From NCBI GenBank assembly GCA_037447655.1, contig JBBHKE010000601.1:59339-123338 (forward strand): 64,000 bases of DNA. Direction: 5' to 3'. The notes beneath the pieces are model-generated. The model made no database searches and had not been told where the DNA came from. It saw nothing but the letters and a program-made list of their open reading frames with translations. The translations under genes and the position numbers were made by a program. Source of the DNA: Zygnema cylindricum (lineage: Eukaryota; Streptophyta; Zygnematophyceae; Zygnematales; Zygnemataceae). Positions 13,001-58,072 of this stretch are shown piece by piece. Within the stretch, counting starts at the first letter, position 1. Every line of letters starts with the position of its first letter.

Positions 13001-13507
13001 TTAGTCAATCGTGACTAAGACATAAGAATAATTACCCGCCCAATTCGTAGTTCCCACATAACCATGTGCTAGAGGGTAGAGTGCGTGGTTCCCACGAGGA
13101 GTGGAGGGTAGAGTGCGTGGTTCCCACGATGAGGGGAGACAGGCTGGATGCCAACACTGACCGCACTGATGGCAGATAAAGACGTTGCCCAGCTGAGAGG
13201 ACAGGCTGCATGCTGATGAACAAGAAGAAGGATCGGCAAAGTAAGTCAAGTGAAAAGTGGATTCCTCCTCCAATCCCCGAAGATGGGAAGGGGCCACATT
13301 GATCTGATTCTCCTTAATTTTTCGACCATCCTTCCCCTCCATTGTAAGAACTCTCTTGTTGCAAACTTGTATCACTTTCAAAATCACCCGCCTTGCAGAA
13401 ATATCAAGTGTGTCCTTCTTCTGTTGCATCAGATATACCAAGTCCCCCGGCATAAATCCTCGCTGACGGGGCACATAATTCCCGCTCCGGCGCTGAGAAT
13501 ACCACAA
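13001..13507 (-). pseudogene. Gy1 integrase C-terminus with PHD-like zinc finger
   Basis: A 168-residue open stretch. Residues ~15-75 are the SH3-like integrase tail (PRQRGFMPGDLVYLMQQ). A Cys-rich block follows, with the spacing C-x3-C-x10-C-x2-C-x4-H-x2-C (FICHQCGQCWHPACL). That pattern fits the first six zinc ligands of a PHD finger; the last Cys pair is not seen. After the finger the coding sequence holds a 27-bp-type direct repeat (GTGGGAACCACGCACTCTAC twice). Gypsy integrases more often end in a chromodomain here. Related to the clearer fingers at 20,440-20,640 and 28,103-28,245. Confidence 0.7.
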
Positions 13508-13558
13508 CTGATCCCTCTATTGAGCCGCCTGTAAATTCCTCATTGCGAGAGGCATCTC

Positions 13559-14384
13559 TCAGTGGAAGATCTTGGCTCTATCGGCGATCAGTTTTTCGAC
13601 CGTTCCCTTGTCATCCATCTCCGGAGGACCACCGTTTGGGCCAAAGAAGCCCCGGGTAGGATGGGATGTCGCCGAATAAAATAAAGAAAGGGCTATAGGA
13701 GTCGAGAGAAGCTTGTCTTTTGAATCTGTATCCCATGGCGATCGAAGGCACCTTTCCGTCCCACTCTCCCAAATCTTCATCCACGAAATATTTACGTAGT
13801 GACCGCTTCATTGTCTTTACGCTCTTTTCAGCCAAACGTCGGCTTGGGGGTGGTCGCGGCTTGTCAGTCGATGATAAATGAGGCATTTCTCCAAAAGATT
13901 GGTAAATTCTCCGGCAAATTCGGATCCTAAGTCTATTAGAACATCTGTTGGCTCCCCAAATTGTGACAGCACCCTCTACAAAAAGGCATCTCCAATTGAC
14001 TTGGATTCCTTCCGGGGAAAAACCAACAACTTTATCTATTTCGAAAAATGTTCAATCATGACCAACACAAAACGGTTCCCCGGTCTGCTGGTTGGAACAC
14101 GTTCCAAAAGATCTAAAGACCAGCGATAAAACATCCCCCGGATAGGAAGAGAATGAAGCTCAGTTCCGCCCTATTTATCAAAAGCTGCCTTGACTTGATC
14201 GCATGAAGAGCAAGTCTGCACAATTCGGTTGACTTGGGCTTGCAACCCGTGCCACCAATAAGAGCCTGTAACCAAGGGAGTGGTCCGCTTCTGCCCGAAG
14301 GGTCCACATTGTTGATGGAGATGGATAATTAGAGTTTTCCGAGCCGAGGGGGGAGGAACCACTTTCCTCGTACTGTCTCACCAT
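13559..14384 (-). pseudogene. Gy1 integrase zinc-binding and catalytic core (frameshifted)
   Basis: The HHCC part reads QTCSSCDQVK around 14200. The core is spread over frames: SLDLLERVP, a SKWI phrase, then VLIDLGSEF near 13,920, and LAEKSVKTMKRSLRKYF near 13,820, which keeps the expected Glu. At least three frame changes break it. Its role in an intact element would be strand transfer into the host genome. Confidence 0.75.
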
Positions 14385-14652
14385 TTCCGGAGGAGAATGC
14401 CTCGGTCACAATCATATGCCGTCATCCGGGTTTGCACCCGAGATAATTGAACTCCAACGAAGTGGGGAAGAGGAGACCTCGCTGGATAGATTTGAGAGCA
14501 TCGGAGTCGTTCCAGATATCCTTTCGTCCGGCTCCTATGAGCGCCAGCCCCTCTTCGTCTGCCGCAAAAGTTGACAGTTCCCCCCAGATTGGGGAAGCCA
14601 GATTAAGGCGGAAGATGCTTGAATGAGCCCTAAACTGATTTCTGGGTCCTCA

Positions 14653-15153
14653 TCATGTCGAGCCCTGGTAGAATCTAGGGTAGACGGATCGAGATTTTCG
14701 GCTAAGTCCGTCGGCATTCCCGTGGATTTCCCCTGCCTTTTGAACAATGCTGAAATCATATTCCTGCAGGATAAGAACCCATCTGGCGAGTTTGCCGGTT
14801 AACTTACTATTTTCCATGATCCATTTCACGGGTTGGTGGTCGATAACCAAAGTGAAATGGACCCCATACAAATAAGGCCGAAAATGCTGGATTGCCCAAA
14901 CACTTGCGAGGAGCTCTCCGTGGTAACTGCTATAATTTCCCTCTGCTCGGTTATTGCTCCGGCTGGCGTAACCCACCATATATTCAGCTCCGGCATCATC
15001 CACTTGAGCGAAAACCGCTCCCAATCCAAACCTGCTCCAATAAGTATTAAGGAGGAAAGGCCTCTGGTGATCAGCATCCAGAGCACGGGACGCTGTTTCA
15101 GAGCATCTTTCAAGAATAAGAAGGCAATCTGTAGCTCTTCGGCCCATTTCCAT
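14653..15153 (-). pseudogene. Gy1 RNase H domain
   Basis: A 166-residue open stretch with the Gypsy RNase H signature: GYASRSNNRAEGNYSSYHGE, then LVIDHQPVKWIMEN and GEIHGNADGLSR. It adjoins RT upstream, partly in another frame. Confidence 0.85.
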
Positions 15154-16017
15154 TCTTTGTCCTTCCGCATTAAGTGATTGAGGGGTTCGGGGTGACTACT
15201 AAACTCCGGGATAAACCGCCGATAGTAGTTGGCCAAGCCGAGGAAGGTGCGAAGGGCCGAGATGTCTTGCGGTGGGGGAAGAGCATCAAGGGCTACCACC
15301 TTGACCATGTGGGGACCCATAGTCCCGGGAGCCAGTTTGATGTCCGAGGTAAATGATTTTCTGTACCCAAAAAATGCCTTTGCCCGGGTGACATTTCAAG
15401 CCCGCTGCTTGGAGTGCTCGGAGAATGATCTGGATATTCTCCAAGTGTTCCTCAAAAGTCTTTAAGAATATGATCACATCATCAACATAGCACCAAGCAC
15501 AATCGATTCCTCGGAGTGCTTCGTCCATTGCCCGTTGGAATTTGGCCGGTGCATTCTTCAACCCGAAGGGCATGTAAATCCATTCATACAGTCAGCAACT
15601 TGTCCAAAATGCCGTTTGCTCCAGGTGCTTCGGTTCCATGGCGATTTCGTGGAAACCGTAATTCTTTTCCAGAGGAGAGTAGATAGTGGCACCAATAAGA
15701 GAGTCCAATATCTCTTCCGGAGTTGGCATCGGATACCGGTCAGAGATGGTGACCATGTTCAGCATGCGATAATCTCCACACATCCGGAAATCTATAGTTT
15801 TCTCGGACGAGTCCTTCTTAGGAGGGATAAATGTCGCGGAAGCAAACCCATGGAGTCCTATGTTTTCCTGAAATAAATGCGGCTTCCACCAAAGTCTAGA
15901 CTTCAGCCGTGATGAATTATTTCTCCTAGAACCTAAGAGGATACTGCTTCTGCCAAACAGTAGCCGTCTCATTAATTTAATCGATTTGGAAAGGGGTTCG
16001 TTTGTAGATGCCGACAT
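15154..16017 (-). pseudogene. Gy1 reverse transcriptase
   Basis: It has PLEKNYGFHEIAMEP, MPFGLKNAPAKFQRAM and the catalytic YVDD (CAWCYVDDVIIF, near 15,495), then AGLKCHPGK and FLGLANYYRRFIPEF. Frame changes near 15,590 and 15,320 break it. The order RT then RNase H is typical of Ty3/Gypsy. Confidence 0.88.
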
Positions 16018-16532
16018 CTGTTTCTGACCATGAGAACACCTGCTTGTTATCCCGCTAAGCTGTCGCCGTCTGAGCCAGCCCCCCCCCCCCCACTAAGAAA
16101 ACCTGCCGTGGTGAATTGTGAATTTTTCTTCTCCTTTCGCTCTCCCCCTCAAGCTGCAAAGTTGCTTGCATCTCTAACAACTGAGAAGCTTCAAGGTAAA
16201 CGACCCTAGATTCCAGGGACCTGAGACTGGAAAAGGCGAGTGCATGCTTGAGTACCCATGTGATAGAATTCAGATCTATATTTTGCCCAATTTGGCTGCA
16301 CCGCTGAAGGTCTGAAATAGCTGGTGGTGCCGTGATGACTTCGTGAAATCCCATCTCTTCTTCCCAATCTGCAATTGTTGGTGTTCTTAGATTCCTGCCT
16401 TACCGTCAAAAATCATTCCTATGGCTCCTTTCCGATATGCGTGACTGTGAGGAAAAGAGACCAATGTCGGGATAACTTTCCGTGGGAATCCCGGTCTGTT
16501 GCACCGAAAGAAAGGGGGGCGGTTGGGTCTAG
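16018..16532 (-). pseudogene. Gy1 linker between methyltransferase and RT
   Basis: Overlapping short open stretches in two frames show no recognised domain. A C-run at 16,079-16,092 interrupts. It corresponds in position to 23,504-24,230 of Gy2. Confidence 0.5.
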
Positions 16533-16752
16533 TCACAAGGTGGCTATTCTACCTTTCCCAAGTATTTGGTGAACAAAATTTTTTGGGTTGGGGATTTCCT
16601 TCTCCAACAGTCGCCGCAGGACTGGAAGCGAGATCATATTGGTCCAATATTCCCTGACTCTGTGTGCCCGGGATCCCATCTGTGCGGCATCGAACACTAA
16701 GGGGGGCCCTAAAATTTGGGTTACATGACTCCAACTGTCTGTAACTTGTTTG
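16533..16752 (-). pseudogene. Gy1 cytosine-5 DNA methyltransferase, C-terminal fragment
   Basis: An open frame enters from the Cp1 LTR at 16,753. It carries ILGPPLVFDAAQ and then GSRAHRVREYWTNMI (16,676-16,635), the late C5-methyltransferase motif in which HR-R-YWTN is conserved. It aligns with LIRPPLIIGAAR and SLAHRVRSKWTNLV of Gy2. The catalytic half lies beyond the Copia insertion and is absent here. Location just upstream of RT matches Gy2, so the domain is an old part of this Gypsy lineage. Confidence 0.7.
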
Positions 16753-18230
16753 TGAAACTCTATGTCCTCCATTGGACTACAGTGTACAGCAAGCCTCTAG
16801 ATAGTTATTAACTAACCCACTTTTAATGGCAACCATTGCTACCCAAGCACACAAGTAGACAATCTCACTACACCACTCTGCAGCTTGGACTCCCCTAAGT
16901 CCGTAGGAAAAAGAATCTCTAAAAACGCCCAACCATGCGATAAGTTATAAGCCGGCAAAAATGTCAATTTATACAACCTTTCAAAGAGAGAGAAGACCAT
17001 CTACCAGATTTTTCTAAGTCCTAGCTCCCTCTCACAACCCTTTCTACTAACTGTACCAACCAATTAGAATGCTGTATAGTACACAAAAGTACTACTGCCG
17101 AAGTACTTTTTGTACGACCTTTGTACAACAAGGCCATTAAGCGGACGCATGTCCGTTTTCCACTCGTCCGTACATTCCTCGGAATTCCAGCGACCGAATG
17201 TTATCTCTCCACGTGGCGCCAGTCATGCCACGTCACTTAATGCCAAAGTAACCATTCCGCGATTTCGGCGATGATGTGTGCCGTTGGATTTGACTTGAAA
17301 TGCAATCTCAGCCGTTATAAATACTTGCGCAATATTTGTTTTTGCTGTCGAAACAAAATGCGTGGTATCCATTTCAAAGTAGTTTCGTACTTCGTTCTTT
17401 ATAAAACTGTATCTATGCATGCCGTATAGAGTTTCAAATAGATGAATTTGTTCCCTGCTAAATACATATATATTTATCACATACAATACCATTTACCAAT
17501 GGTCATAGTCTAATAGGATAAAGCTGACCGCTATCAGCCAACTTAATGGATGGCAGGTACCGGGATCAAATTTCGGGTCCGTCAGGTATATTTTTAGTAA
17601 CTTTTGAAGGTCATGGGCATTCTACCTCGGCACTGTTCCACTCCCACTAGGCGTCACACTTGCACCATTTGGGACTGAGCCATTAGTAGACATGGCAGCA
17701 AAAGCAAACCCAAAGAGTAATACCTTTTTGACTAGATTTATGTTTTAAGATATGTAGCTTTAAGTGAGAGAGGTCTTACAACCAGACAAACATATACCAC
17801 AACCAAAATAAAGACAATAGAACAAAATAACACCTTAAATTGCACTTAGTGCTCTCATTTCTTTCAACTCTGTGTAGAATGTACATTCTGTGTCGAATTT
17901 GCTCAATCCTAATTGAACTAAATACTCAAAAGATCTAGAAAACATCTAAAACGTATGAACAGGGTTCACCTAAATATCTACTGACAAAAATCTAAGTACT
18001 TGGACCAGAATTGTGTAGAAACAATATCTACACCCAAAAATTCCGTGAGATATTTATTACGTCCACATTCATTGGCAGCCTACACACTAATTTACTTAAA
18101 GATAACTATTTGTGTAGATACTACGAAAATCCACACTAAATTTGGTGAATATTGAACTGTTGGTGATCCAAAATTATTTCTAAGTCCTAGACTCTAATTT
18201 CTAAGACTTACTAAAGCTTACTTTTCAATA
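16753..18230 (-). repeat. 3' LTR of Copia element Cp1
   Basis: A 1,478-bp unit starting TGAAACTCT. It ends at 18230 before a polypurine tract (complement of CTCCCTTTAAGC). It shares the family layout: GTAC cluster (about 17,080-17,170), CCACGTGGC box near 17,211, tRNA-like A/B boxes near 17,505-17,585. It is inserted in the Gy1 methyltransferase. Confidence 0.85.
17505..17585 (+). promoter_or_regulatory. tRNA-like A/B-box module in the Cp1 LTR
   Basis: TCTAATAGGATAAAGC resembles a pol III A box. About 45 bases later CGGGATCAAATTTCGGG gives a B-box-like core with a short stem. It lies antisense to the element. Weak alone; supported by the same layout in other LTRs here. Confidence 0.4.
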
Positions 18231-18727: not shown

Positions 18728-19662
18728 AAGCAAAAATGATGCATAAACCTCCAAGGGTTCATGACTTCCTCCAAAAATCAGTAGGAGGGGACCGAGAGAA
18801 AGCCGAGATGCAGGCTACCGTGGCGGCCATGATGAAGGAGCAGTTTGCCGCGCTTATGGCGCAAGTCAAACCACAATTAACTGGAATGGCTCGAACTGTG
18901 GTCCATATGCCCTCTTTCCCTCAGCGATCTCTTCGGGAGTCCACTGTTCAACAGCGGGCAGCTCAATTTAAAGTTACTCCCGATCATAATCGCGAGTCAA
19001 AATCCATTAACACACGTATCCCACTATCATTTGCTAAAGATTCCCGCTCACCGATTCCAGAAACGGCCTCTAGCATCACCGTTGAAGCATTAACAATCCT
19101 TGAGAGGAGCATACAAGACACTTATAAGGTCAAAGAATGTTTGTCAATCCTGTCCACCATGCTCCCCGAGTTGGATATCAACGAAAAACATGTAGATCTT
19201 ACTCTTTCAGCAGTTGCGTTACAGGCATTACAAAACCATCGTCATGCTCTCTCCCTTCAAGCTATTACTCTTGAAGAGCGTTCTAGCCTCACTCCTCACA
19301 TCAGTTTTCTAGATAACAAATTGGGTGTGTTCACGGTGAATGGGTTTGCTCTAGCACTTCCTCTCATGGATACAGGCGCAAAGCCAATTATCCTCGGTTC
19401 AGATTTTGCAATCAAAATAGGTCTTACAGCAGATAAGCTACAACCCATTACCATACGGCTATTGACTTCCACAGGTACCACAAAATCGGTCCTCGGAATT
19501 ACAAAGGAAACAGTCTGTTTCCAGTTTCAGAGTGAATCAGAGACAGATTTTGCAGAAATATATGCCCTCGCCTTGGTCACCAAGTGTAGTGATTATGAAT
19601 GCCTTGTCGGCTAAGACGTAATTTTCCGCGAAGGGGGGGGGTTGATATGCACGATCAAACAA
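18728..19662 (+). pseudogene. Inverted Gypsy fragment: LTR bit, gag end and protease
   Basis: A 292-residue open frame (18,736-19,614). It is nearly identical in protein to the minus-strand gag-protease of Gy2 at 25,206-26,045 and contains the retropepsin motif PLMDTGAKPIILG. The first 40 bases copy an LTR phrase (AAAATGATGCAT-AACCTCC, also at 19,886). The homology ends at 19,662, exactly where the Gy2 LTR begins, so Gy2 or its LTR inserted into this older, opposite-facing copy. A stop follows CLVG, and the G-run at 19,633 differs in length from the other copy. Confidence 0.85.
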
Positions 19663-20397
19663 TGTTGGATTCCTGTACTTAATTTGCAAAAGTTACTATC
19701 TCGCCAAATGCCATTTATCCTATGCTTTCACTAATTCGTATGGCTACACTAATTCCTACATGTCTCTGAGCAGGCAGGTTTCTATGTTAAAATGCTGCCA
19801 GTTTCAAGAGACGACCGCTACGTGGCCGCCTCGGACTGCCTAACATCTACACCTCGAGGATGAAAACCTACCCTAAGCTAAGCAAAAATGATGCATGAAC
19901 CTCCCAGGGTTCATGACTTCAGACACCTGTCAGGTTTGTAGCCGTTTGAATTCTTGACGTCTGATGCCGTATCGCGGTCCACTTCCACGCTAATTTCACA
20001 TCGTGTTCCGTGGGGCCGTACGAGAGTATATTCCAACCTTTATCCCGTCCGAATCACTAGTTATTCTCTTGGATATGAATCTGTCATGTCACGGAAACAT
20101 CAATTAGTACACAATTAAATCATAATACCCGTTGACGTCTTACGGCATGACAGCTGTCGTGCATGGCACTACAACCGTGAATGGCATGCATCACATCCAG
20201 TGTGGGCCGCCAATAAACACCAGAAAATGAATGACCATTATATACGTACAGTATTTGTGACCACAATCGGAGTACAAAGCATATATAACGCAAGGAACAA
20301 TAAATGAATCTGCCGGAAAAACAAATTATTCCAAACACATGGACCTAGCAAGAAAATAAAAGACAAAGCAAGATCAGGTAAGTAAGGATGGAATTCC
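19663..20397 (-). repeat. 3' LTR of Gy2 (approximate inner end)
   Basis: The outer end is TGTTGGATTCC at 19,663. The same sequence ends the plus-strand LTR at 29,031 (GGAATCCAACA). The inner end abuts a C-run at 20,398 (polypurine tract on minus). I could not find a TG at the inner edge, so that limit is approximate. Confidence 0.65.
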
Positions 20398-20439
20398 CCC
20401 CCCCCCCCCAGCTCCTTAGCCCGCGGGGGAGCTGGTAAG

Positions 20440-20640
20440 GATAGCCAGTAGGTTGGGACACCCGTGGCAAAACCAATGTCTGGCCGGGATAGTGTGTAGA
20501 GTTGGAACCAAACACTCCATATGGAATCCCAGATTGCAATAGTCACTGAGGAGCATTGTTCTTTCTCCATCAGATCGTCAGCATAACTGACACTTGTTGT
20601 TTCTCCATCAGATCGTCGGCATAACTGACACCCAGTGGCC
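20440..20640 (-). pseudogene. Gy2 PHD finger, broken by a 38-bp duplication
   Basis: It starts with GCQLCRRSDGET, the first Cys pair of a C4HC3 PHD finger. The phrases FHMECLVP-type and FCHGCP follow in other frames. Two copies of a 32-base phrase (TTTCTCCATCAGATCGTC...) at 20,562 and 20,600 form a 38-base tandem duplication that shifts frame inside the finger. Intact PHD fingers usually bind methylated or free histone H3 tails. Confidence 0.72.
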
Positions 20641-21816
20641 TCAGTAATCGGCATCCGCCACGGGTCCATGCTATGGGAAAGATCAGGTAAATAACAAGGG
20701 GCACAATTTTTCAAATGCTCCCGCAAAGTTTGCGTGTCGGCCCCTTGTAGGCTCAATAATCCATTGGAGTCGATTTTTGTTATCCTCAAGATATGAGCCT
20801 AAACATCCGTGTCGAGTGTGTCAAAAGTTTGCCGTCGCAAATAAATGTAATCCCCCACCCGGAAGGGTTTTTGTTGCGACCGGTAGCTGCCACTCCGAGC
20901 CGTCGAAAACCGTAAGGAGTCGCGATGTTGGGCAATCTGCAGGTTTTCAAAAGCCATGGGCATTTCTCTAGCGGAAAGCAAAGCCCCGGTTAGTTAGTTG
21001 TTCCAAAAAAAGAGAATCAGACATAAGAGGTAGAGGTAAGCTCGCGACATTCTGTACATTCCTACCTAGTGGTGGTTTTCGACCAAACAACACATAATAG
21101 GGGCTGAAATTTGCTAGGATGGCCTGTACAGACATGCGATAAACCATGAAAATATATCCCAATGATTCATCCCACACCGTAATATGTTTTTCTAAGCAAT
21201 GTTTACGCAAAGCACGCTTAAAGGTTTGTACATCTCTCTTTGCCAAACTGTCTATTGGAGGATGATTTCGGCTCGTCCGCCGGTGATCGATTAATGCCTC
21301 ATCTAGCATCTCCTAAAATTCGCCACGGAACTCGGTTCCTTGGTCTGTAAGTAATTCTGCAGGGGCTCCATATCGGAGGAGCACGTGCTCCTTAAAAGTT
21401 GCGGTGTTAAGTTTGGCAGTTTTCTGCGAGAGTGCCACAACTTCCACCCATTTACTGAAATTCTCGATCATTATCATGATGTATTGTTTGCCCTTTCGAG
21501 AAATGGGAAAGGGACCTGCAAGATCACACGACCACCTGTAAAAGAGACCGCGAATAGGCAAGGGTTGAAGGGAGGTCTGTCGCTAAGAAAATGAAGTTCG
21601 TAGCCGGTCACATGTGCTGCATTCCTGCAACACAGCTACCACATCAGCCTGCATGCCGGACCACCAATATCGTGCCTGTACCAAACTCAAAGTCCGTTTG
21701 GTGCCATAGTGTCCAACGTGAGTATGAATTTGATTGATAAGTGATAGTCGTTCTGTCGGCCGTGGGACATGCTGGTGACTTCCATATGAGAGAAGACGAA
21801 TAAGTGAGCCCCCCAT
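20641..21816 (-). pseudogene. Gy2 integrase (zinc domain, core, C-terminal tail)
   Basis: The zinc domain spans 21,816-21,583: HVGHYGTKRTLSLVQARYWW and CSTCDRLR. The core starts WSCDLAGPFPISRKGKQ, has LLTDQGTEF and, after a stop at 21,313, HRRTSRNHPP. Where the catalytic Glu is expected the sequence reads AKRDVQTFKRAL, Lys instead of Glu (Gy4 has AERA). The C-terminal tail carries FRVGDYIYLRRQTFD, then NCAPCYLPDLSH just before the PHD finger. The Lys change alone would kill strand transfer. Confidence 0.85.
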
Positions 21817-21967: not shown

Positions 21968-22426
21968 TTATATCAGATGTGCTCCGGCTAATAAGGAGGC
22001 AACTGATCCGTCATCAAAATCTTGCCATACACCATTATCATTGGAGTGGGGCAACGGGTTCCTGGACCAGCCGTCGGCATTCAAACTGAGGAGCCCGGGT
22101 CGATGGATTATTTCCATGTCATATTCCTGTAAAATAAGAGCCCAACGGGCTAGTTTGCCGGATAGCTTGTCATTGGTCATGAGCCAATGCAATGGTTGAT
22201 GGTCAGTAAGAAAGGTAAAAGGCTTGCCGTAGAGATGGTGTCGGAAATGCACAATACCCCCAACTGTGGCAAGGCACTCCCCCTCATAACTAGTGTAATT
22301 TGACTCGGCCTGATTGTTGCTCCGACTGGCATAAGCCACCACATATTCCTCACCGGTGAGTTCACGCTGAGTTAGGATGGATGCAATACCGGGCTTACCA
22401 AAGTCCGTCTGTAGGCAAAATGGCAA
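21968..22426 (-). pseudogene. Gy2 RNase H domain
   Basis: A 152-residue open frame with LQTDFGKPGIASILTQ, VAYASRSNNQAESNYTSYEGE, FLTDHQPLHWLMTN and HRPGLLSLNADGWSR. This is a Ty3/Gypsy-type RNase H, joined to RT upstream. Confidence 0.9.
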
Positions 22427-22507
22427 CTTATGATTTGGGGAACGAAGAATAGGAGCGGTGGACAGTGCGACTTTTAATCCCTGAAATGCCCCGATCTGGG
22501 AGGGCCC

Positions 22508-23503
22508 CTACGTGAACGCAACCGAATTCTTCAAGAGTTCATTCAGTGGAGATGCAAGTGCGCTGAAACTTGGGACAAACCGTCGGTAATAATTTACTAA
22601 CCCCAGGAATGCACGCAGGCTAGTCAAATCTGTTGGGGCCGAGAGTTTACTAATTGCTTCCACTTTTACTTCTAACGAAGTAATTCCCTCGGATGAAGTA
22701 AAGTGTCCTAGATAGGGTGCACCTTCGGCCACGAAAGTGCATTTGGCAGGATGACATTTGAGTCCTACCTTTTTTAATTCCTTCAATAGCCACTCTATAT
22801 GCACTGCATGTTCCTCTATAGTGGCTGAAGCGATGATTAGATCGTCGATATAGCAACGGGCAAACTTACATCCCCCAAAGAGTGAGTCCATGACTTTTTG
22901 GAATACCGCCGGTGCATTTTTCAGTCCAAAGGGCATAACCGCCCATTCCCAACGTCCGTCACTACCCCAAAATGCAGTCTTATGTCGACCTTTTTCCTCT
23001 ATTTCGATCTGATTAAATCCCTTTCGCAGATCTAGGATGCTGAAATATTTAGCTCCTCCAACATGATCAAAAATATCCCGAGCCAACGGCATTCGACGTC
23101 AGTATTGGATTGTACGTGCATACAGTTCTCTGTAGTCCCCACACATGTGACGTCCTGTAAAATTCCCCTCCGCGTCTTTTTTACGAGGCATGACGGTGTG
23201 CGCCGCAAAGGTGGAATCGGACCTATAAATAAGACCTGCCTCTTCTAACTTTGCGCATCGTTTGTCTACAAATTCCCATTCAGTTTCGGATAGACGATGC
23301 TTGGGCTTAAATATAGGTGTGTCATCTTCCAGGTCAATAGACATTTTGTAAGTGGTGTGTCGACCTAAGTCTTTCATGGAGAAAGCAAATGCGTCTACGT
23401 TTCGGTTTATGACTTCATCTAACAGTTCGTGTTCAGTTTTTGTTAGTCCAGTTCCGAATTTCCATGTCGGTTTTTCAGGCGTGTTAATGGTCATGGCTTC
23501 CAT
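22508..23503 (-). pseudogene. Gy2 reverse transcriptase
   Basis: The N-terminal part spans 23,503-23,099 (ELLDEVINRNVDAFAFS, KHRLSETEWEFVDKRC, RHMCGDYREL). After one in-frame TGA comes 23,092-22,508: FSILDLRKGFNQIEI, MPFGLKNAPAVFQKVMD, catalytic YIDD, GLKCHPAKC, LRAFLGLVNYYRRF. All core RT motifs are present, and the single nonsense codon near 23,096 is the main defect. Confidence 0.92.
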
Positions 23504-24255
23504 GGCTTGTGCAAATGCTAGCTATTCATCTGCTATCAAGGAGTGACCCAACTTATACTCAACAAGAAGCTGATGCAAACAATTTACTGCGTGATGCCAA
23601 CTTCAAGACGGAAATGCAGCTGTCTAGTGTGGTGATGCCCGTACCGGTACCTAAGATCTAGCGGCCGTGTATGTTGGGAGAGACCAACTCATGTGACTAG
23701 GTTCCAAAAAGATCCTAAATAGTGTGATCTGTGTCAGCCTTAGCGAGAAAAGGAAAATGTCGAGCTGAAAGGTTGTACCCCGAAGAGAAGGTGAGGATTT
23801 GGATGCTGTATGTTTAAATAGTGTATGCTTCCCCCAGCTGATTGAGAAGGATTGTTCTGTGCGTAACGGCCAGCTGCAAACCCCATGCCCAAGATGAACA
23901 ACAATGATTGGGGGTCGATGACTCGACCAAGTAAAGTGCAGCGTTGTCGCTCGGTGAGTCTCGGAGCGTCAGTAGTGACTGGAATGAAATATAAAAGATG
24001 TTCTTGTTCGCGGCAATAGGTTCTTCTAAGCTGCCTTTATGAGTATTCTGAAGCATGCCCGGTCCATTATGTGAGTATGCGTGAGAATGTGGATATGCAA
24101 CTAGTGTAGGCAGTGCACGTAGTGGTTGGCTGGGATGTTAAGACCAAATGCAAGAGAATAGTCTGTGTGTATACATGTCTGGACCTTATGAAATGGAAGA
24201 AGTGCATCCTGAATGGAAAGGTTAGGTGGTTGGACGGCAAGGTTAGCTTCTCGAA
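23504..24255 (-). pseudogene. Gy2 linker between methyltransferase and RT
   Basis: About 250 codons' worth of sequence with short open stretches (24,056-23,814 and 24,327-24,067 in other frames). No domain is recognised. In a working element it would join the methyltransferase to RT in the polyprotein. Confidence 0.5.
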
Positions 24256-24850
24256 GCCGACCCATGTCAACCAGGTTAGTCCACTTGGAACGAACGCGAT
24301 GGGCCAACGAACCGTGGCGTGCGGCACCGATAATTAGCGGTGGTCTTATCAATGATTCAATGCGTTTGTAATCTACGATAACCGTCGGTCGGGGATCGTT
24401 ATAAGCTGCGATATTTTCTAGGATGTATCCGAAAGGACGATCCAATTTTTGGAAGAAGTGGATCAAATGAACCACCTCGAAGAACAGCTTAGTACGCGGA
24501 TCTGCGAGACCTAAACCTTTCCCGGCCCTAGACATACCCTAACATTCCTTTTCGGCAAAGAGGAGATCAATTAGTTCCAATTCCATTAATTGATGATTTC
24601 CTATTAGCCAGATATATTGTGGCAACGCCGAATGCATATCGTGAAACACAAACTGGGGTAAGAGATGAGGATAATGTTCGTGCAAGACTTGACAGTGGTG
24701 CAGTTCAGCGCGTCTAGCCAATGGGTCAATATCTACGAAATAGTAATGCTTTATCAGAAGACAGTTCCGAAGAAAAGAGAGAAGTGAAGTCCCTATTCAT
24801 GCAATAAAGACTAAGATAACGAGACCGTTTTGGTGAGGTTGTAAATTGAC
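24256..24850 (-). pseudogene. Gy2 retrotransposon cytosine-5 DNA methyltransferase
   Basis: One reading frame between protease and RT. Motif I is a LVFIA-stop-IGTSL stretch (TGA at 24,799-24,797 at the usual Gly position). Motif II is YYFVDIDPLARR (near 24,730). Motif IV is LLFAEKEC followed by TAG at 24,541-24,539 and then GMSRAGKGLGLADPRTKLFFE, with the catalytic Cys kept but PCQ read as E-C-stop. Motif VI is GYILENI (Glu at 24,418-24,416). The late motif is GSLAHRVRSKWTNL (24,310-24,272). Spacing and motifs fit Dnmt3/DRM- or phage-like C5 enzymes, which transfer methyl from SAM to cytosine. Two in-frame stops, with no frameshift, disable this copy. The family call is firm; the subfamily is open. 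Confidence 0.82.
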
Positions 24851-25204
24851 CAGTGTCCATTTAATGGGCAAGAAATTGGAAGGATCTATGGTAATGGAGG
24901 GTAGATCTGGAAAACTAGATAAAGGAAATGGTATAGTTAATTTATATAGTCGGTCAAAATTTGAAGATTCAACGATAAATCCGGGTGTACTAAATAATTC
25001 TGGTAAACTCGGGGAATCTGGTGAGATTTCATCTGATGTTAGAAATTCAAGGATTTCTGCACCTATGCCAACTGCAGCATAGGCTGGCAAGATCAGCGCC
25101 GAATGGGCCGTGGTAGGCATTGGTTGGCGGGCCGAGATAAAAGGTAAGCAAATTTTACGTTCCAGAAAGTTGTTCGGTCTATACGAAACTGTTTGATTGT
25201 GCAT
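24797..25204 (-). pseudogene. Gy2 region between protease and methyltransferase
   Basis: A 135-residue open frame beginning MHNQTVSYRPNNFLER and leading in the same frame into methyltransferase motif I. Pro/Leu-rich and of unknown function, perhaps a linker. It starts two bases after the protease stop, in the +1 frame relative to gag-protease, right after a run of nine G. Confidence 0.55.
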
Positions 25205-25205
25205 A

Positions 25206-26070
25206 TCAACTCCCCCCCCCTACGCGGAAATTTACGTCTTGGCCGACAAGGCATTCATAATCACTACACTTGGTGACCAAGGCGAGGGCATATATTTCTG
25301 CAAAATCTGTCTCTGATTCACTCTGAAACTGGAAACAGACTGTTTCCTTTGTAATTCCGAGGACCGATTTTGTGGTACCTGTGGAAGTCAATAGCCGTAT
25401 GGTAATGGGTTGTAGCTTATCTGCTGTAAGACCTATTTTGATTGCAAAATCTGAACCGAGGATAATTGGCTTTGCGCCTGTATCCATGAGAGGAAGTGCT
25501 AGAGCAAACCCATTCACCGTGAACACACCCAATTTGTTATCTAGAAAACTGATGTGAGGAGTGAGGCTAGAACGCTCTTCAAGAGTAATAGCTTGAAGGG
25601 AGAGAGCATGACGATGGTTTTGTAATGCCTGTAACGCAACTGCTGAAGGAGTAAGATCTACATGTTTTTCGTTGCTATCTAACTCGAGGAGCATGGTGGA
25701 CAGGATTGACAAACATTCTTTGACTTTATAGGTGTCTTGTATGCTCCTCTCTAGGATTGTTAACGCTTCAGTAATGATGCTAGAGGCCGTTTCTGGAATC
25801 GGTGAGCGGGAATCTTTAGCAAATGATAATGGGATACGTGTGTTAATGGATTTTGACTCGCGATTATGATCGGGAGTAACTTTAAATTGAGCTGCCCGCT
25901 GTTGAACAGTGGACTCCCGAAGAGATCGCCCAGCGAAAGAGGGCATATGGACCAAAGTTCGAGCCATTCCAGTTAATTGTGGTTTGACCTGCGCCATAAG
26001 CGCGGCAAACTGCTCCTTCATCATGGCCGCCACTGTAGCCTGCATCTCGGCTTTCTCTCGGTTCCTCCTA
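25206..26070 (-). pseudogene. Gy2 gag end and aspartic protease
   Basis: A 279-residue open frame from 26,045. The N-terminal ~150 residues are unassigned gag-like sequence (MQATVAAMMKEQFAALMAQ). The retropepsin motif PLMDTGAKPIILGSDFAIKI follows near residue 185. The frame is open but lacks a 5' start, leader and capsid region, which are missing right of 26,070. It is the inverted twin of 18,780-19,660. Confidence 0.85.
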
Positions 26071-26107
26071 CTGATTTTTGGAGTGTTGTCTTTCTCTACC
26101 CCCTTGG
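26071..26107. other. Junction between Gy2 gag leader and repeat R1
   Basis: A short sequence (GTGTTGTCTTTCTCTACCCCC) not shared with the inverted twin; probably Gy2 leader. Plus-strand LTR-like sequence begins at 26,108. Confidence 0.4.
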
Positions 26108-27012
26108 TTGGTTACTTACCTGATCTTGCTTTGTCTTTTATTTTCTTGCTAGGTCCAAGTTTTTGGAATAATTTGTTTTTCCGGGCAGATTCATTTATTG
26201 TTTCTTGCGTTATATATGCTTTGTACTCCGATTGTGGTCACAAATACTGTACATATGTAATGGTCATTCATTCAAATGGTGTTTATCAACGACCCACACT
26301 GGTTATGATGCATGTCATTCACGGTTGTCCTGCCATGCACGACAACACGTCAAAAATCTATAATAACGATAGCAAATTGCGAAAAGATAAAAACGTACAC
26401 TTGTTATAAAGCCCTAAATAGAAGTCGAAGACAAAGAGAAAAAATGACAAAAATGAGATGGCATTTTATGCCCCCACTTTTGAAAGAACGTCTAACACAT
26501 ACACTCATCCAAAGCCACTCTCACACAACCAATTATCTACACTATCATTGGAGTATAATCATCTATAACATCATTGTGTGCATAATCACACCGCTTTCTT
26601 AACATTGTCACGCTCAATTTCTTTAACAACTGATTGTAACCAAGGAAGGGTTTACTAAGATGAAATCACAAAAAATATAATGTTCTCCGTCAAGCAAAAG
26701 TGTTACAATCCTCCGCGATTGAGTAAGACGTGAAACCTTCTTACAAACCAAATGAGGCACCTCATAAGCAATAGTCTCAATCATGTTGCAAATGGTGTCA
26801 CATACTTTAATTTACTCTCCCTATTGGGAACAACAAAACAAATACATGCGATCGGCCTGAACGACATAATCGCACGAGTGCGATTAACGGTGGATGAGGG
26901 TGAAAGTGGAAACCTGAAGTCAGTGGTGAATTGAGTATGCTTAAAAATGTAGAGGGAGATAAAGGTGACCGAAATCACCAGTTGAACACTAGAGCTTACG
27001 TAACGGAGAAGA
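26108..27012. repeat. Repeat R1 (Gypsy LTR start plus retroelement remnant)
   Basis: It is near-identical to R2 (29,482-30,393) in the same orientation. The first ~240 bp are a plus-strand copy of the Gypsy LTR start (TTACTTACCTGATCTTGC..., also at 20,378 on minus). The remaining ~660 bp read better on minus: LDGEHYIFCDFILVNP resembles the phrase at about 61,450-61,500. The two copies flank Gy4. Confidence 0.75.
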
Positions 27013-27990
27013 TGCAATTTTATCAACCACGGTATTGGTGGTCCGGCATGCAGGCTGATGTGGCGGTTGTGTCGTAAGAATGCAACACATGTGACTGGCT
27101 ATGAACCTCGTTTTCTAATCGGCAAACTAACCTTCAACCCTTGCCCATTCAGGGGCTCTTCTACAAATGGTCGTGTGACTTGGTAGGTCCATTTCCAATC
27201 TCTCGAAAAGGCAAGCAGGACATTATGATAATGATCAAAAATTTCAGCAAATGGGTGGAAGTTGTGGCCCTCTCGCAGACTATTGCCAAACTCACCACTG
27301 CAGCTTTCAAAGAGCATGCTCTTCTTTGATACGGATCCCCCGCAGAAGTACTTACCGACCAAGGAACCGAGTTCCACGATGAATTTCAGGAGATGCTGGG
27401 AGAGGCGTTAATCGACCATCGGCGGACAAGTCGAGATCATCCTCAAGCAAATGGTTTGGCAAGTCGAGATCATCCTCAAGCAGATGGTTTCGCAGAGAGA
27501 GCTGTACAAATTTTTAAGCGTGCTTTGCGTAAACATTGCTTGGAAAAACTGATTACGGTGTGGGATGAATCATTGGGATATATTGTCATGGGTTATCGCA
27601 TGTCTATATAGGCCAGCTTGGCAAATTTCAGCCTCTATTATGTGTTGTTTGGTCGCAAACCACTACTAGGTAGGAGTGTACAGAAAGCCGCGAGCTTACC
27701 TCTACCTCTTGTGTCTAATTCTCTGTTTTTGGAAGAACTAACTAACCGAGCGTTGCTTTATGCTAGAGAAATGCCCATGGCTTTTGAAAACTTGCAGATT
27801 GCCCAACATCGCGACTCCTTACGGTTTGCAACGACTCGCAGTGGCACCTACCGGCCACAATAAAAACCCTTCCGGGTAGGGGATTACATTTATTTGCGAC
27901 GACAAACTTTTGACAAACTCGACACGGATGTTTCAGCTCATATATTGAGGATAACAAAAATCGACTATAATGGATTATTGAGCCTACAAA
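27013..27990 (+). pseudogene. Gy4 integrase
   Basis: It has WSCDLVGPFPISRKGKQ, VLTDQGTEFHDEF and AERAVQIFKRALRKH, so all three acidic catalytic positions are present, unlike Gy2. A 33-base in-frame tandem duplication (27,428-27,460 and 27,461-27,493) doubles SRDHPQANGLA just before the catalytic Glu. Stops occur at 27,328, 27,609 and 27,861. The tail has FRVGDYIYLRRQTFDKLD. Confidence 0.85.
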
Positions 27991-27999
27991 GGGCCGACA

Positions 28000-28245
28000 C
28001 GCGAACTTTGCGGGAGCATTCGAAAAATTGTGCCCCTTGCTATCTACTTGATCTTTCCCACAACATAGACCCGTGGCGGATTCCGATTACCGAGGCCACT
28101 AAGTGTCAATTATGTCGAGGATCTGATGGAGAAACAATAATGCTCCTCTGTGACTATTGCAATCCAGCATTCAATATGGAGTGTTTAGTTCCACCTCTGC
28201 ACACTACCTCGGCTGGATAGTGCTTTTGCCACGGGTTTCGCGACC
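28000..28245 (+). pseudogene. Gy4 PHD finger (best preserved)
   Basis: After NCAPCYLLDLSH comes KCQLCRGSDGETIMLLCDYC, then AFNMECLVPPLHT and FCHG. C-x2-C, an acidic MLLCDYC, x4-(H replaced by N)-x2-C and PPL are the classic C4HC3 PHD pattern. The zinc-ligand His reads Asn, and a stop (TAG, 28,218-28,220) replaces the Trp region before the last Cys pair. In host proteins this fold reads histone H3 tails. At the end of an integrase it would tether the integration complex to chromatin. Confidence 0.82.
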
Positions 28246-28289
28246 TACCGACTTTCCTTACCAACTCCCCCGCAGGCTAAAGAGCTGGG

Positions 28290-29031
28290 GGCGGAGGGAA
28301 TTCCATCCTTACTTACCTGATCTTGCTTTGTCTTTTTTTTCTTGCTAGGTTCATGTGTTTGGAATAATTTGTTTTTCATGGCAGAATCATTTATTGTTTC
28401 CTGCGTTATATATGCTTTGTACTTTGATTGTGGTCAAAAATACTGTACATATGTATTGGTCATTTATTTTTTGGTGTTTATCGGCGACCCACACTGGATG
28501 TGATGCATGCTATTCACGATTGTACTGCCATGCACGATAGCTGTCATGCCGTAAGACGTCAGCAAGTATTATGATTTAATTGTGTACTAATTGAAGTTTC
28601 AGTGACGTGATATGTTTATATCCGAGAGTACAACTAGAGATACGTACGGGATGAAGGTCGGAATATACTCCCGTACGGCACCACGCGAACACGATGTAAA
28701 ATCAGCGTGGAACTGGATCGGGGTACGGCATCAGATGTTAGGAATTCAAACGGCTACAAACCTGACAGGTGTATGAAGTCATGAACCCTAGGAGGTTCAA
28801 ACATTATTTTTGCTTAGCTTAAGGAGGGTTTTCTTCCTCAAGGGGTAGATGTAAGGCATTCTGAGGTGGCCACGCAGCGATCGTCTCTAAAACTGGCAGC
28901 GTTTGAACATAGAAACCTCTCTGCTCAGAGACAAATAGGAATTAGTGTAGCCGTACGGATTAGTGAAAACATAGAATAAATGCCATTTGGCAAGATAGGA
29001 ACTTTTACAATTTAAGTACGGGAATCCAACA
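28290..29031 (+). repeat. LTR of Gy4
   Basis: It matches the Gy2 LTR in inverted order through to GGAATCCAACA at 29,031. The inner edge follows GCTGGGGGCGGAGGG, a polypurine tract (about 28,286-28,300). Confidence 0.7.
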
Positions 29032-29481
29032 TTGGGAGGTTGTCGTTTTGTGACAAGCATTATTCTCGAGATTTGTCGAACTCTATCGTTAGGGTTTCAC
29101 CTAAATATTTAGTGGCAGGCTAGCTTTTGAGTTAGGGTTTTTCCTTTTTCAGACCCATAGTTTCATGCTAGTAATTGTCTATGAGCTTCTCTTTCTCTTT
29201 GTACTAAGACCTTACCTAATCTACCGGCGCAAGCCAACCTGCAAGGTTTCCCTCTAGAGCGTCTTCTACTTGGTGTGGTTGTTGAATTGCGTCTGTGGAC
29301 TTGGTGTTTCTTGTTGTCAGAGCGTTGACTTTGCAGTCTAGCTCCAGTCTTGTCTGGCTTTGTGGGAATACCGGCTATCGTGGCTCCTTTGTCCAGTTAA
29401 GGAAGGGTTCTTGTCTGTTGGTTGGACTCCTGTAGGGAATATAAAAAGACTTCAGAGCCTAGTGGCTACTGTCGCAAATAT
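29032..29481. other. Unassigned sequence between Gy4 LTR and R2
   Basis: 450 bp without recognised coding sequence. If the Gy4 LTR is a 5' LTR of another copy, this could be leader sequence, but I see no clear primer site. Confidence 0.5.
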
Positions 29482-30393
29482 GAATTCCATCCTTACTTAC
29501 CTGATCTTGCTTTGTCTTTTATTTTCTTGTTAGAACCATGTGTTTGGAATAATTTGTTTTTCCGGGCAGATTCATTTATTGTTTCTTGCGTTATATATGC
29601 TTTGTACTCCGATTGTAGTCACAAATACTGTACATATGTAATGGTCATTCATTCAAATGGTGTTTATCAACGACCCACACTGGTTATGATGCATGTCATT
29701 CACGGTTGTCCTGCCATGCACGACAACACGTCAAAAATCTATAATAACGATAGCAAATTGCGAAAAGATAAAAACGTACACTTGTTATAAAGCCCTAAAT
29801 AGAAGTCGAAGACAAAGAGAAAAAATGACAAAAATGAGATGGCATTTTATGCCCCCACTTTTGAAAGAACGTCTAACACATACACTCATCCAAAGCCACT
29901 CTCACACAACCAATTATCTACACTATCATTGGAGTATAATCATCTATAACATCATTGTGTGCATAATCACACCGCTTTCTTAACATTGTCATGCTCAATT
30001 TATTTAACAACTGATTGTAACCAAGGAAGGGTTTACTAAGACAATATCACAAAAAATATAATGTTCTCCGTCAAGCAAAAGAGTTACAATCCTCCGCGAT
30101 CGAGTAAAACGTGAAACCTTCTTACGGACCAAATGAGGCACCTCATAAGCAATAGTCTTAATCATGTTGCAAATGGTGTCACATACTTTAATTAATTCTC
30201 ACTATTGGGAACAACAAAACAAATAGATGCCATCGGCTTGAACGAGATAATCGCATGAGTGCGATTAACGGTGGATGATGGTGAAAGTGGAAACCTGAAG
30301 TCGGTGGTGAATTGAGTAGGCTTAAAAACGTAGAGGGAGCTAAAGGTGACCAAAATCACCAGTTGAACACTAGAGCTTGCGTAACGGAGAAGA
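29482..30393. repeat. Repeat R2, second copy of R1
   Basis: Same orientation as R1 and nearly identical over ~900 bp. It ends at GAGAAGA, where the Copia M LTR begins. Differences include GGTCCAAGTT versus GAACCATGTG near the start and a handful of substitutions. Confidence 0.8.
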
Positions 30394-30896
30394 TATAATT
30401 TTGTGACCTCCATTGGCCCACAAAATGTCCATCTTATATGAAGCCTCTATGATAATGTTTGCCCGTTTGACTTTCCCTGTAAATAAGTGCCACCATGGCA
30501 CGCAAATATTCTGACCACCCTCACCCCTGTGAAGGTCCGACTCCTTTGAGACGAACGGAAAAAGAATCACTAAATTTGCTCCCTTGAGCATTTTTTTAAG
30601 GGCGGCCAAAGATGGCCTATAAATACAAAAGGTCTCTGAGAGAGAGGTGCCTCAAAAATGCCTAAGTCCTTATTCCTTCTCTAAACCCTACTACTACTAC
30701 TACTGTACTTCACCACCCACAAAACTGTAAAGTAAATGAAGTACAGTTGCCGTGGTACTTTTTGTACGGCCATGGTACGGTATTGCCGTCTCGCTGACGT
30801 TTGTGAGCCATGGTCGATCTTCTCGTAATATCCACCGTCCACTTATAGCTTGCTTGCCACGTGTCATCTGCCGACATTAGCTCGCAAACCGCCAAA

Positions 30897-54824: not shown

Positions 54825-55821
54825 CTCCCCTTATTTTCTAGCCAATCTTTAATTTCAGACCACACTTCTCCCTGCAAAAAATTAGCTTAGGGGAAGGCAC
54901 AGGTTTGGTCATCATATCTGCTACCATCTCACTATCTGGTCTGTACTCTAAACTGATTATTTTGTTTTCTACTTTCTCTCTAACAAAGCTGAGTCTCATG
55001 TCCATGTGTTTGGCTTTTAAATGGTGTTTAGGATTGGCAGAAATAGCGATTGCTGCCTGATTATCACAAAATATTTTCTGCACACCACTCTTAAGGTGAC
55101 TAAGCTCACCAAGCAAAGACTTGACCCACATCAATTCTTTTACAGCAGAGCAAGAGGCCATATACTCAGCCTCCATGGTGGACTGAGCAATAACCTTTTG
55201 CTGTTTGCTACTTCAACAGCAAGCCCCATCACCCACATATAATACATATCCAGAAGTACAACTCCTCATCGGAGCATCACCATAACTGGCATCACTCCAA
55301 GTAGTGATGTCAGTATTCTCCCCACCCAAATGCAACCATAGATCTCTAGTTCCTACCAAGTATCTAAGGACTCTCTTAGCTGCCTCCCAATCCTTCTTAG
55401 TGGGAGCATTTAGACTTCTACTCAGCACTCCTACAGCTGCAGCTAAATCCGGCCGGGTACAATTCATAAAATAGATTAGACTTCCCACTACTTGCCTGTA
55501 AGGAATAGTCTGCATGAACTTCTGTTCATCAGGAGATAATTCCTCGTCTAAGACTATGACTCCTTCTTCCTCACTCCCCTCACTTCCCTTCTTCAACTCC
55601 ATTGGAGTTGTACAACTATTAGCTTTATCCATTTGAAATTTTTCAAGCATGTTCCCTATTGCTTCCTTTTGAGTCAGTTTTATAATTTTCCTTTTTCGGT
55701 CTCTCTCTACTTGAATTCCCAAAATATATTTTGCTTCCCCCATACCCTTCATTTCAAATCTCCCCTTAAGATCGATTTTCAGTTTATTAATTTTTTCCAT
55801 TGATTTACTTAAAACAAGCAA
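54825..55821 (-). pseudogene. Element F RT end and RNase H
   Basis: 55,821-55,213: LVLSKSMEKINKLKIDLKG, GMGEAKYILGIQVERD, QTIPYRQVVGSLIYFMN, TTWSDASYGDAPMRSCTSGYV. One TGA at about 55,215 (Trp expected). Then 55,176-54,838: MEAEYMASCSAVKELMWVK, CDNQAAIAISANP, HHLKAKHMDMRLSFVREKVE, MVADMMTKPVPSPKL. Otherwise intact. Confidence 0.92.
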
Positions 55822-57278
55822 ATCATCATTATAAATTGCAATAAATATAAAACCTCCTTTCCTTTTTCCACAAACCCTTCGGGTTGTCCCATGAAGATCT
55901 CCTCTTCCAATTCTCCATGCAAAAAGGCTGTTTTGATGTCCATCTGGTGCACTTCCATGTCTTCCGCTGCTGCTAAACTGAGAAGTATGCGGACGAAGGG
56001 AAATCTGACCACCGGGGCAAAGGTTTCCTCGTAGTCAATTCCTTCCTTTTGTGTAAATCCCTTTGCCACTAATCTGGCCTTGTAGCGCTCGATTGTGTTA
56101 TCTGGGTTCAGTTTTAGTTTGAAAACCCACTTACAACCGATTGGTTTTCGGTTAGGTGGACAGTCCACCAGCTCCCAAGTATCGGCTGCCATGATTGAAG
56201 CCATCTCCTCATTGATGGCTGTCTTCCACCGGTTTCTTTCTGGACAAGTCATCGCCTCTCCATAAGTTTGAGGTTCATCTTGATGAGATAGTTTAGTTAC
56301 CTTGTTATTAACCTGTTTTTCTTGCAGTCTTTTGCTACTTCTCCTCCCCCCCTCAAAATCTGAGGCCGGAATAGATGGTTCTCGTGGATTCTTTCGAACA
56401 AACTCGGCTTCTCCCCTATCCCTTGATTCCGAATCAATTTCCACCACGTCTTCCGCTTCGAGTAGAGTTGTCACTGGAGTTTCCACAGCCGAGTCCTTTT
56501 CAGTCTGATTTGTTCCTGCAAGAATGTCATCTTCTCTAAAACCTGGATAGTTAGGAAGCTCAAAGTCATCGGAATTTTCTGACTCAAATCTGATTTTTAC
56601 TGACTTCGTATATTTGAAGGGATCTACAGACTTTCCTTCATCCATAACTACTAGATGCTTTACTAAGATTATATCTTCCCTTTTTAGATCATAAACTCTA
56701 TATCCTTTAACATCTTCATCATATCCTAATAAGTATCCTGGTTTTCCTTTAGGATCTAGCTTCCAATTGGACCGATCAGTATCTAGACTGAACACTTGAC
56801 TGCCGAAAACCGTTAAGTGAGATATGTCTGGTTTCCGGCCTGTCCATCTCTCATAAGGTGTTTGATCTTTTATAGCTGAAGTAAGAACTCTATTCTTGAG
56901 GTAATTAGCACAGTTCATTGCTTCTGCCCAAAACCTTTTCCCTATCCTTTTATCTGACAACATACTTCTAGCACTATCACTTAGTGTTCTATTTAACCTC
57001 TCAGCTACCCCATTCTGTTCAGGATTTTCTGGAACTGTCTTTTGGTGTTGAACCCCATCTTCCCTCAAAAAATCCTCAAACTGGTTAGAAGTATACTCTC
57101 CACCATTGTCACTCCTTACTCTCTTGATTGGAGTTTCATGGAGTTTTTCGCTCCATGCTTTATATTGTCTAAAACAATCCTCAGCTTCGGACTTGTTTTT
57201 CAAAAAATATACCCGGGAATACCGAGACCAATCATCAGTTATAGTCATCATAAATCTCTTCCCCCCCGGTGAGGGCAC
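55809..57278 (-). pseudogene. Element F integrase and N-terminal RT
   Basis: A 489-residue open frame. The integrase core has TDDWSRYSRVYFLK, RSDNGGEYTSNQFEDFL and NPEQNGVAERLNRTLSD, so the D-D-E set is present. The tail has PYERWTGRKPDISHLTVFGS and KPGYLLGYDED. RT follows: EEMASIMAADTWELVD, IGCKWVFKLKLNPDNTIERY, YEETFAPVVRF, HQMDIKTAFLHGELEEEIF. At 55,850-55,870 a deletion joins EKGKE to GFIFIAIYNDD in another frame, removing ~60 codons before the catalytic motif, which reads YNDD. Confidence 0.92.
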
Positions 57279-57986: not shown

Positions 57987-58072
57987 AAGGAGCTCATCGT
58001 CCTCGTCCTCGGATTCAGCCTCAAGTACCTGTGTGACAAGGGCCTTTTTCTTTCCTCTCGAGTACCACCGGT

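Follow-up and report, generated by a model that had tools for sequence, protein, structure and literature searches.

A cytosine-5 methyltransferase of predicted DNMT3 type belongs to Gypsy retrotransposons of Zygnema cylindricum with relatives in other green algae

In this study, we found a C5-methyltransferase relic between the protease and the reverse transcriptase (RT) of a Gypsy element, at positions 23875-24829 on the minus strand of a 64,000-nt stretch of Zygnema cylindricum DNA (the window). The assignment of this enzyme to the element family is well supported. Related elements widen the methyltransferase-bearing Gypsy case beyond a single charophyte, to a clade in which both green algal phyla are represented by named members, and most of these elements carry a PHD finger behind the integrase.

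Results

The window copy and its surroundings

The window copy is a dead, rearranged Gypsy retrotransposon. Its parts, and those of a second relic of the same kind, are listed below; C1344 is the contig of an intact sibling, and A and B are the repeats of that sibling.

25209-26111, minus strand: pre-protease stretch and retropepsin in an open frame (profile match 25212-25520; Asp_protease_2 0.0051, under the cut-off; family profile 2.8e-31)
23875-24829, minus strand: relic of a C5 methyltransferase of predicted DNMT3 type (PF00145 8.5e-5; family profile 1.2e-60)
22577-23317, minus strand: reverse transcriptase, its frame interrupted by a stop (RVT_1 9.8e-28 for 22511-23098; family profile 2.8e-97)
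22094-22537, minus strand: RNase H (RT_RNaseH 2.7e-31; family profile)
20781-21783, minus strand: integrase in two frames (family profile 6.5e-109 and 1.2e-19)
20458-20595, minus strand: PHD finger behind the integrase (family profile 4.3e-16)
19660-20398, minus strand: 3' repeats, B at 20155-20398 and the beginning of A, in which the copy ends (alignment to the C1344 sibling)
18769-19661, plus strand: extra copy of the protease region in inverted orientation (97% identity with 25190-26083 by self-comparison)
27028-29725, plus strand: inverted extra fragment with integrase, PHD finger and B-A-B 3' repeats (self-comparison, sibling alignment, family profile)
13130-16760, minus strand: relic of a second Gypsy family with methyltransferase (16241-16760), RT, RNase H, integrase and a PHD trace (family profile)

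A preliminary description of the window had reported C5-methyltransferase motifs on the minus strand and proposed a PF00145 search there. The motifs are present at that place, and a 372-aa reading of the relic, with X at both in-frame stops, matched PF00145 at 8.5e-5, barely passing the cut-off (22.6 against 22 bits). The 145-aa stop-free piece alone stayed below it (0.007, 16.3 bits). The 372-aa reading also matched DNMT3B (1.2e-5) and phage cytosine methyltransferases (best 3e-8). In the reverse direction, three phage enzymes searched against the window matched 24185-24832 at 9e-13 to 3e-8, and their next-best match, 16578-16772 at 0.016 or worse, falls in the second relic. As a protein query, residues 110-372 of the X reading gave 706 candidates and none at 0.001, and the 145-aa piece found no related loci among viral contigs; the relatives described below were found with the full sibling frame and its methyltransferase region as queries, not with the relic sequence.

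The domain had been placed at 24256-24850, whereas it in fact runs from 24829 to about 23875, past that limit. Motifs I-VIII lie in one frame (24829-24128) with in-frame stops at 24799 and 24541, and the rest is split over two other frames, 24137-24003 and 24042-23881; the family profile matched the three pieces at 1.2e-60, 2.4e-11 and 2.6e-08. The earlier statement that the copy has no frameshift thus holds inside the span first given and fails for the last third of the domain. It also fails beyond the other end: near 25212-25220, a G run separates the frame of the protease from that of the methyltransferase. A programmed frameshift at this G run was considered and dropped, since the sibling reads through in one uninterrupted frame, and the break is therefore most likely decay. 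Both stops had been attributed to C-to-T change; in comparison with six open sibling copies, one is consistent with a C>T/G>A change, but the other does not fit and this cause is ruled out for it.

The window protease is weak by Pfam (17.9 bits against a cut-off of 24.3) and has the MDTGA motif. The protease is also under the Pfam cut-off in the siblings L035 and L036 (best 2.2e-4, 22.3 against 24.3 bits), and that of the relative P0004 is annotated as PF13650. Relative to the two-ended sibling, the window copy has lost its 5' repeat together with some 510 residues from the start of the frame; it stops inside the 3' A repeat, so that both element ends are gone. The PHD finger in the larger inverted fragment (27864-28217) matches PF00628 at 6.9e-6. 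Segments 26112-27021 and 29493-30402 form a 96% direct repeat consisting of repeat B and about 670 bp that are perhaps duplicated flank; this part of about 670 bp had no match in either sibling element searched. These direct repeats were ruled out as LTRs, since the match to the sibling is confined to repeat B, about 230 bp at their start.

Two further observations concern the rest of the window. An open frame at 116-850 on the plus strand, with a match to a dehydrogenase E1 component at its end (PF00676, 3.4e-11), was taken as a section of a 2-oxoglutarate dehydrogenase gene and is the only likely piece of a host gene examined. Repeat copies with Copia-type frames are numerous in the region 30396-60352; one example is 55213-59053, which has RVT_2 and rve.

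Intact siblings and a second bearing family

The genome searched comprised 352.8 Mb in 2689 contigs. With the 145-aa piece as query, 1140 first-look candidates were obtained, and all 150 that were scored matched (E up to 4e-57), the window's own locus among them. Counted by eye, 86 of these 150 are stop-free over the 145 aa and 64 have stops. PF00145 gave 782 candidates, and 123 of 123 scored matched.

Intact siblings in the same genome, for which the preliminary description had suggested looking, do exist. Locus L034 on contig C1344 has a single 2395-aa frame with methyltransferase (PF00145 2e-11, 44.4 bits), RT, RNase H, integrase (zinc and core domains) and PHD finger (1.5e-9), together with a weak zinc knuckle (0.0086); the protease region precedes the methyltransferase. 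RT, RNase H and an integrase core of the rve type in one Pol frame are the hallmark of Ty3/Gypsy elements. The tyrosine recombinase that would mark a DIRS element is absent, with no PF00589 match in the L034 frame up to 0.01; nor was a chromodomain matched there up to 0.01.

A second Gypsy family in this genome is represented by L041 and L042, with frames of 1525 and 1520 aa in the same domain order as L034 (methyltransferase, RT, RNase H, integrase, PHD) and protease matches in the preceding frame. The arrangement of protease, methyltransferase and RT is therefore seen elsewhere in the genome, in L034, L041 and L042, and neither outcome by which the preliminary description would have been refuted occurred. 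Between the second window relic and L041, identity is 66-75% in integrase, RNase H and RT.

The element ends are unusual for Ty3/Gypsy elements, which have one full LTR per end: the C1344 copy has A on the left and B-A-B on the right, giving the layout A-coding-B-A-B with an A of 931 bp and a B of 243 bp. Its two A repeats are 100% and its two B repeats 99.6% identical. The outer ends are TGTC...GACA, and TTGG on both sides forms a 4-bp target duplication in this one copy. At the inner B-A junction the sequence GACA-GC-TGTC resembles joined element ends with two extra bases, and the same GC occurs in C449. The C449 copy, which is more diverged (A repeats 80% alike), has the same layout and no perfect target duplication (three of four bases). 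Paired B repeats were also found in C1407 and C2234, whose sequences are without left ends.

Enzyme class, catalytic motifs and selection

In the 47 sequences checked, the catalytic Cys of motif IV and the Glu-Asn of motif VI are present in all, and the Arg pair of motif VIII in 45, in the expected order. The residue before the catalytic Cys is mostly not the Pro by which C5-methyltransferases are recognized: it is Glu in 51 of 71 domains, the L034 sibling included, whereas Pro followed by Cys-Gln occurs in 6, other letters in 4, and 10 gave no match. Glu in this position is an unusual change for motif IV.

A profile of eight domains compared with solved structures placed DNMT3A at the top (3.2e-23, three collinear segments), with HhaI at 3.3e-12, DRM2 at 3.1e-11 (1.1e-12 for 4onj, which is named only DNA methyltransferase) and DNMT2 at 5.1e-8. 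None of the 57 structure matches was named DNMT1, MET1 or CMT. DRM2 was matched only by the end of its chain, as predicted from its rearranged motif order. From this ranking and the collinear segments, we place the enzyme as DNMT3-related and unrearranged, the class reported from Klebsormidium nitens, a placement that follows from profile comparison with solved structures.

For selection, six open copies out of 30 loci were used; loci were read without gaps (L032 was out of frame), and stops in indel-bearing copies are therefore overstated. Over the 15 pairs of these first-family copies, dN/dS of the methyltransferase was 0.06-0.43. In the second family it was 0.13 for the methyltransferase, 0.13 for RT, 0.09 for the integrase and 0.49 for the PHD finger. 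Between C1344 and C449 dS is saturated, and dN is 0.16 in the methyltransferase against 0.05 in RT, so that the methyltransferase evolves faster than RT. The ratio of 0.64 for C449-C2234 comes from a near-identical pair with few changes. These values indicate that the methyltransferase is kept under purifying selection. The original claim that the family encodes its own C5-methyltransferase is thus borne out by intact sibling frames, the invariant catalytic Cys and the low dN/dS of the first family.

Relatives, trees and domain orders

Searching proteins with the L034 methyltransferase region gave 46 relatives at 1.7e-35 or better and up to 46% identity, and 42 of them also match RT. They include sequences assigned to Haematococcus lacustris (Chlorophyta) and Closterium sp. 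NIES-54 (Streptophyta). A search with the RT region, of which the best 120 of 3587 matches were taken, added 115 new sequences; 20 of these bear a methyltransferase, two as weak or short pieces (P0137, P0155). Among the 20 are Closterium sp. NIES-53 and three sequences labelled Tetstr1, which we take to be Tetraselmis striata. No K. nitens sequence appeared among the 46 methyltransferase relatives or the best 120 of 3587 RT matches.

Two domain orders were found. The methyltransferase lies before RT in 27 sequences, the window family included, and between RNase H and integrase in 39; five sequences had no call. In an RT-RNase H tree of 72 sequences, 50 bearing sequences and P0117 stand on one side and 21 non-bearing Gypsy sequences on the other, with support of 100/99.7 and a bootstrap that was not fully settled; to call the bearing side one clade assumes a root outside the bearing sequences. 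P0117 has no methyltransferase, and its frame starts 178 residues before RT, past the place of the domain. The RNase H-integrase order forms one clade in this tree (100/100). It also forms one clade (100/99) in a methyltransferase tree rooted with phage enzymes, nested among sequences with the domain before RT, and the deeper forks of that tree are weak.

The RT trees used 27 of 83 usable non-bearing sequences, namely 15 picked by hand (from algae, plants and animals, with P0117 among them) plus one in every six of the remaining sequences. Twelve sequences were dropped for the 72-sequence tree: seven near-duplicate bearing ones and five non-bearing ones, of which P0156, P0056 and P0108 had long branches and P0079 and P0118 were near-duplicates. 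As the RT relatives are the best 120 of 3587, the clade may also contain non-bearing members outside this set. Methyltransferase and RT distances correlate (Mantel r 0.72, 50 sequences, 0 of 999 permutations), with r of 0.95 within the before-RT order and 0.73 within the RNase H-integrase order.

A PHD finger behind the integrase was found in 47 of 55 bearing sequences and in 1 of 95 non-bearing ones (P0117 only); the bearing sequences counted are those with enough sequence behind the integrase, and 15 further ones were left out. The eight bearing proteins without it are P0007, P0014, P0107, P0115, P0131, P0147, P0163 and P0164, and the PHD finger is thus dispensable in some lineages. Its nearest solved structures include PHF12, KDM5-type demethylases, BAZ2B, WSTF, PHF21A, AIRE and UHRF1. 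Many PHD fingers of this set read the unmodified H3 tail.

Discussion

The trees suggest that one capture of the methyltransferase, followed by one later move inside Pol, would be the simplest reading. Age by descent and transfer between algae would both fit this pattern. We tentatively propose, with slightly less than even confidence, that a DNMT3-type methyltransferase and a PHD finger were acquired a single time by one Gypsy lineage, at an early stage of green plant evolution, and that this lineage has since retained both as an epigenetic kit, which unites a DNA methylation writer with a histone-tail reader in one polyprotein. The writer would later have moved from before RT to before the integrase. 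If this is true, the published charophyte case would be one twig of an old clade across Chlorophyta and Streptophyta, and green algal genomes would carry hundreds of mobile DNMT3 genes.

Since hosts use methylation against transposons, it is puzzling that a transposon clade should maintain a methylation enzyme of its own under selection. We infer self-methylation and chromatin targeting by these elements, in that the methyltransferase and the PHD finger would act jointly to mark the new DNA of the element and place it in suitable chromatin, a proposal that we regard as evenly balanced. The element protease would free the methyltransferase from the polyprotein, and the freed enzyme would add de novo methylation to the cDNA or to the newly inserted copy. 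Insertion would be steered by the PHD finger on the integrase, through binding of the histone H3 tail, by analogy with the chromodomain of chromoviruses. The new copy would then start out like the silent DNA of the host itself, and through this resemblance harmful insertions would be fewer and the response to foreign DNA weaker.

Possible traces of self-methylation in the sequence are mixed. CpG observed/expected is 0.84-0.94 in the first family, 0.62-0.63 in the second and 0.74 in the window; CpG depletion as such a trace is therefore absent in the first family and present in the second. Between copies, transitions are more frequent at CpG than at GpC (odds 1.88, p 2e-5, calculated from overlapping pairs); a small Copia control shows a less clear excess (1.29, p 0.46). 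Experiments in yeast point both ways: in the accessible text of PMC5890265, dinoflagellate DIRS DNMT domains methylate CG, which favours the proposal, whereas the K. nitens Gypsy domain gave no methylation, which counts against it, in a test that its authors called inconclusive. Further points against the proposal are the Glu in motif IV, the eight bearing sequences that do without the PHD finger and the dead state of the window copy.

Other roles for the enzyme should be considered. It might restrain the element or its rivals, with methylation silencing copies, lowering harm to the host and favouring hosts that keep the enzyme. This option is offered in the part of PMC5890265 that was available, and the many broken copies (the 64 of 150 with stops, by eye) would agree with it; self-silencing is nevertheless hard to square with selection at the level of the element, and the fully identical A repeats of C1344 tell us that copies still spread. 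We consider restraint improbable, though it is the best placed of the alternatives. Somewhat less probable still is that the enzyme methylates element RNA instead of DNA, for instance so that the genome is stabilised or packaged. RNA methylation was proposed, according to the available portion of PMC5890265, for dinoflagellate LINE enzymes inactive on DNA in yeast, and the Glu before the catalytic Cys may change activity, but the profile is far closer to DNMT3 (3.2e-23) than to the tRNA enzyme DNMT2 (5.1e-8). A defence of the host cell against DNA viruses, from which host and element would both profit, has been proposed for retrotransposon methylases in the accessible part of PMC6338049; no observation here bears on it, and we hold it very unlikely. 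The reading as a host DNMT pseudogene lying by chance beside retrotransposon debris, for which the broken state of the window copy is the only point, is refuted by the unbroken sibling frame with RT and integrase, the RT matches of 42 of the 46 relatives, and the second window relic with the same domain order.

Joint action of methyltransferase and PHD finger is the reading that we prefer. With a candidate partner at hand and many copies in one genome, what the element gains from DNA methylation becomes testable. Furthermore, mobile DNMT3 copies bear on counts of host DNMT3 genes in algae; an algal transcriptome survey found, in the portion of its text at hand, no DNMT3 in green algae (PMC9998398).

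Retrotransposons with DNA methyltransferases are not new as a kind. DNMTs under purifying selection have been described from a Gypsy element of K. nitens as well as from LINE and DIRS elements of dinoflagellates (PMC5890265, accessible text). Streptophytes and dinoflagellates are again named for such elements in the part of PMC12344493 that was available, and PMC6338049 lists, in its available part, retrotransposons with adenine or cytosine methylases (pooled) in several groups, green algae included. In the literature searched, mostly outside subscription journals, we found nothing on a PHD finger in such elements and no cytosine-methyltransferase Gypsy in a named chlorophyte. As far as that literature shows, the Haematococcus relatives, the position of bearing elements on one side of an RT branch, the two domain orders and the PHD finger are new.

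The present elements share a chromatin-reader type of domain at the C-terminal end of the integrase with chromoviruses, Gypsy elements with a chromodomain behind the integrase. The likeness is one of analogy: here a PHD finger stands instead of the chromodomain, and a methyltransferase is present in addition. De Mendoza and co-workers reportedly described in 2019 arthropod retrotransposons with a methyl-CpG binding domain. Those elements, too, captured a part of the methylation system, a reader there and a writer here.

SymbioDIRS-Dnmt3 and SymbioLINE-Dnmt of dinoflagellates are likewise DNMT-bearing retrotransposons, and according to the accessible text of PMC5890265 two domain orders occur in the DIRS elements, whose Pol includes DNMT3; they use a tyrosine recombinase or LINE machinery, in contrast to the rve integrase core and 4-bp target duplication found here. 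The closest known system is the charophyte KnitGypsy-Dnmt3 of Klebsormidium nitens (de Mendoza et al., 2018; PMC5890265), through which the kind is already known. As described in the available part of that paper, it also combines a Gypsy Pol with an unrearranged DNMT3-related enzyme under purifying selection, and the legend of its Figure 4 gives DIRS-like repeats with Gypsy domains, the same layout as the A-coding-B-A-B of C1344. The word PHD is absent from the accessible text on KnitGypsy-Dnmt3. Compared with KnitGypsy-Dnmt3, by description only, the elements reported here differ in their reach into Chlorophyta, their two domain orders and, in most members, a PHD finger.
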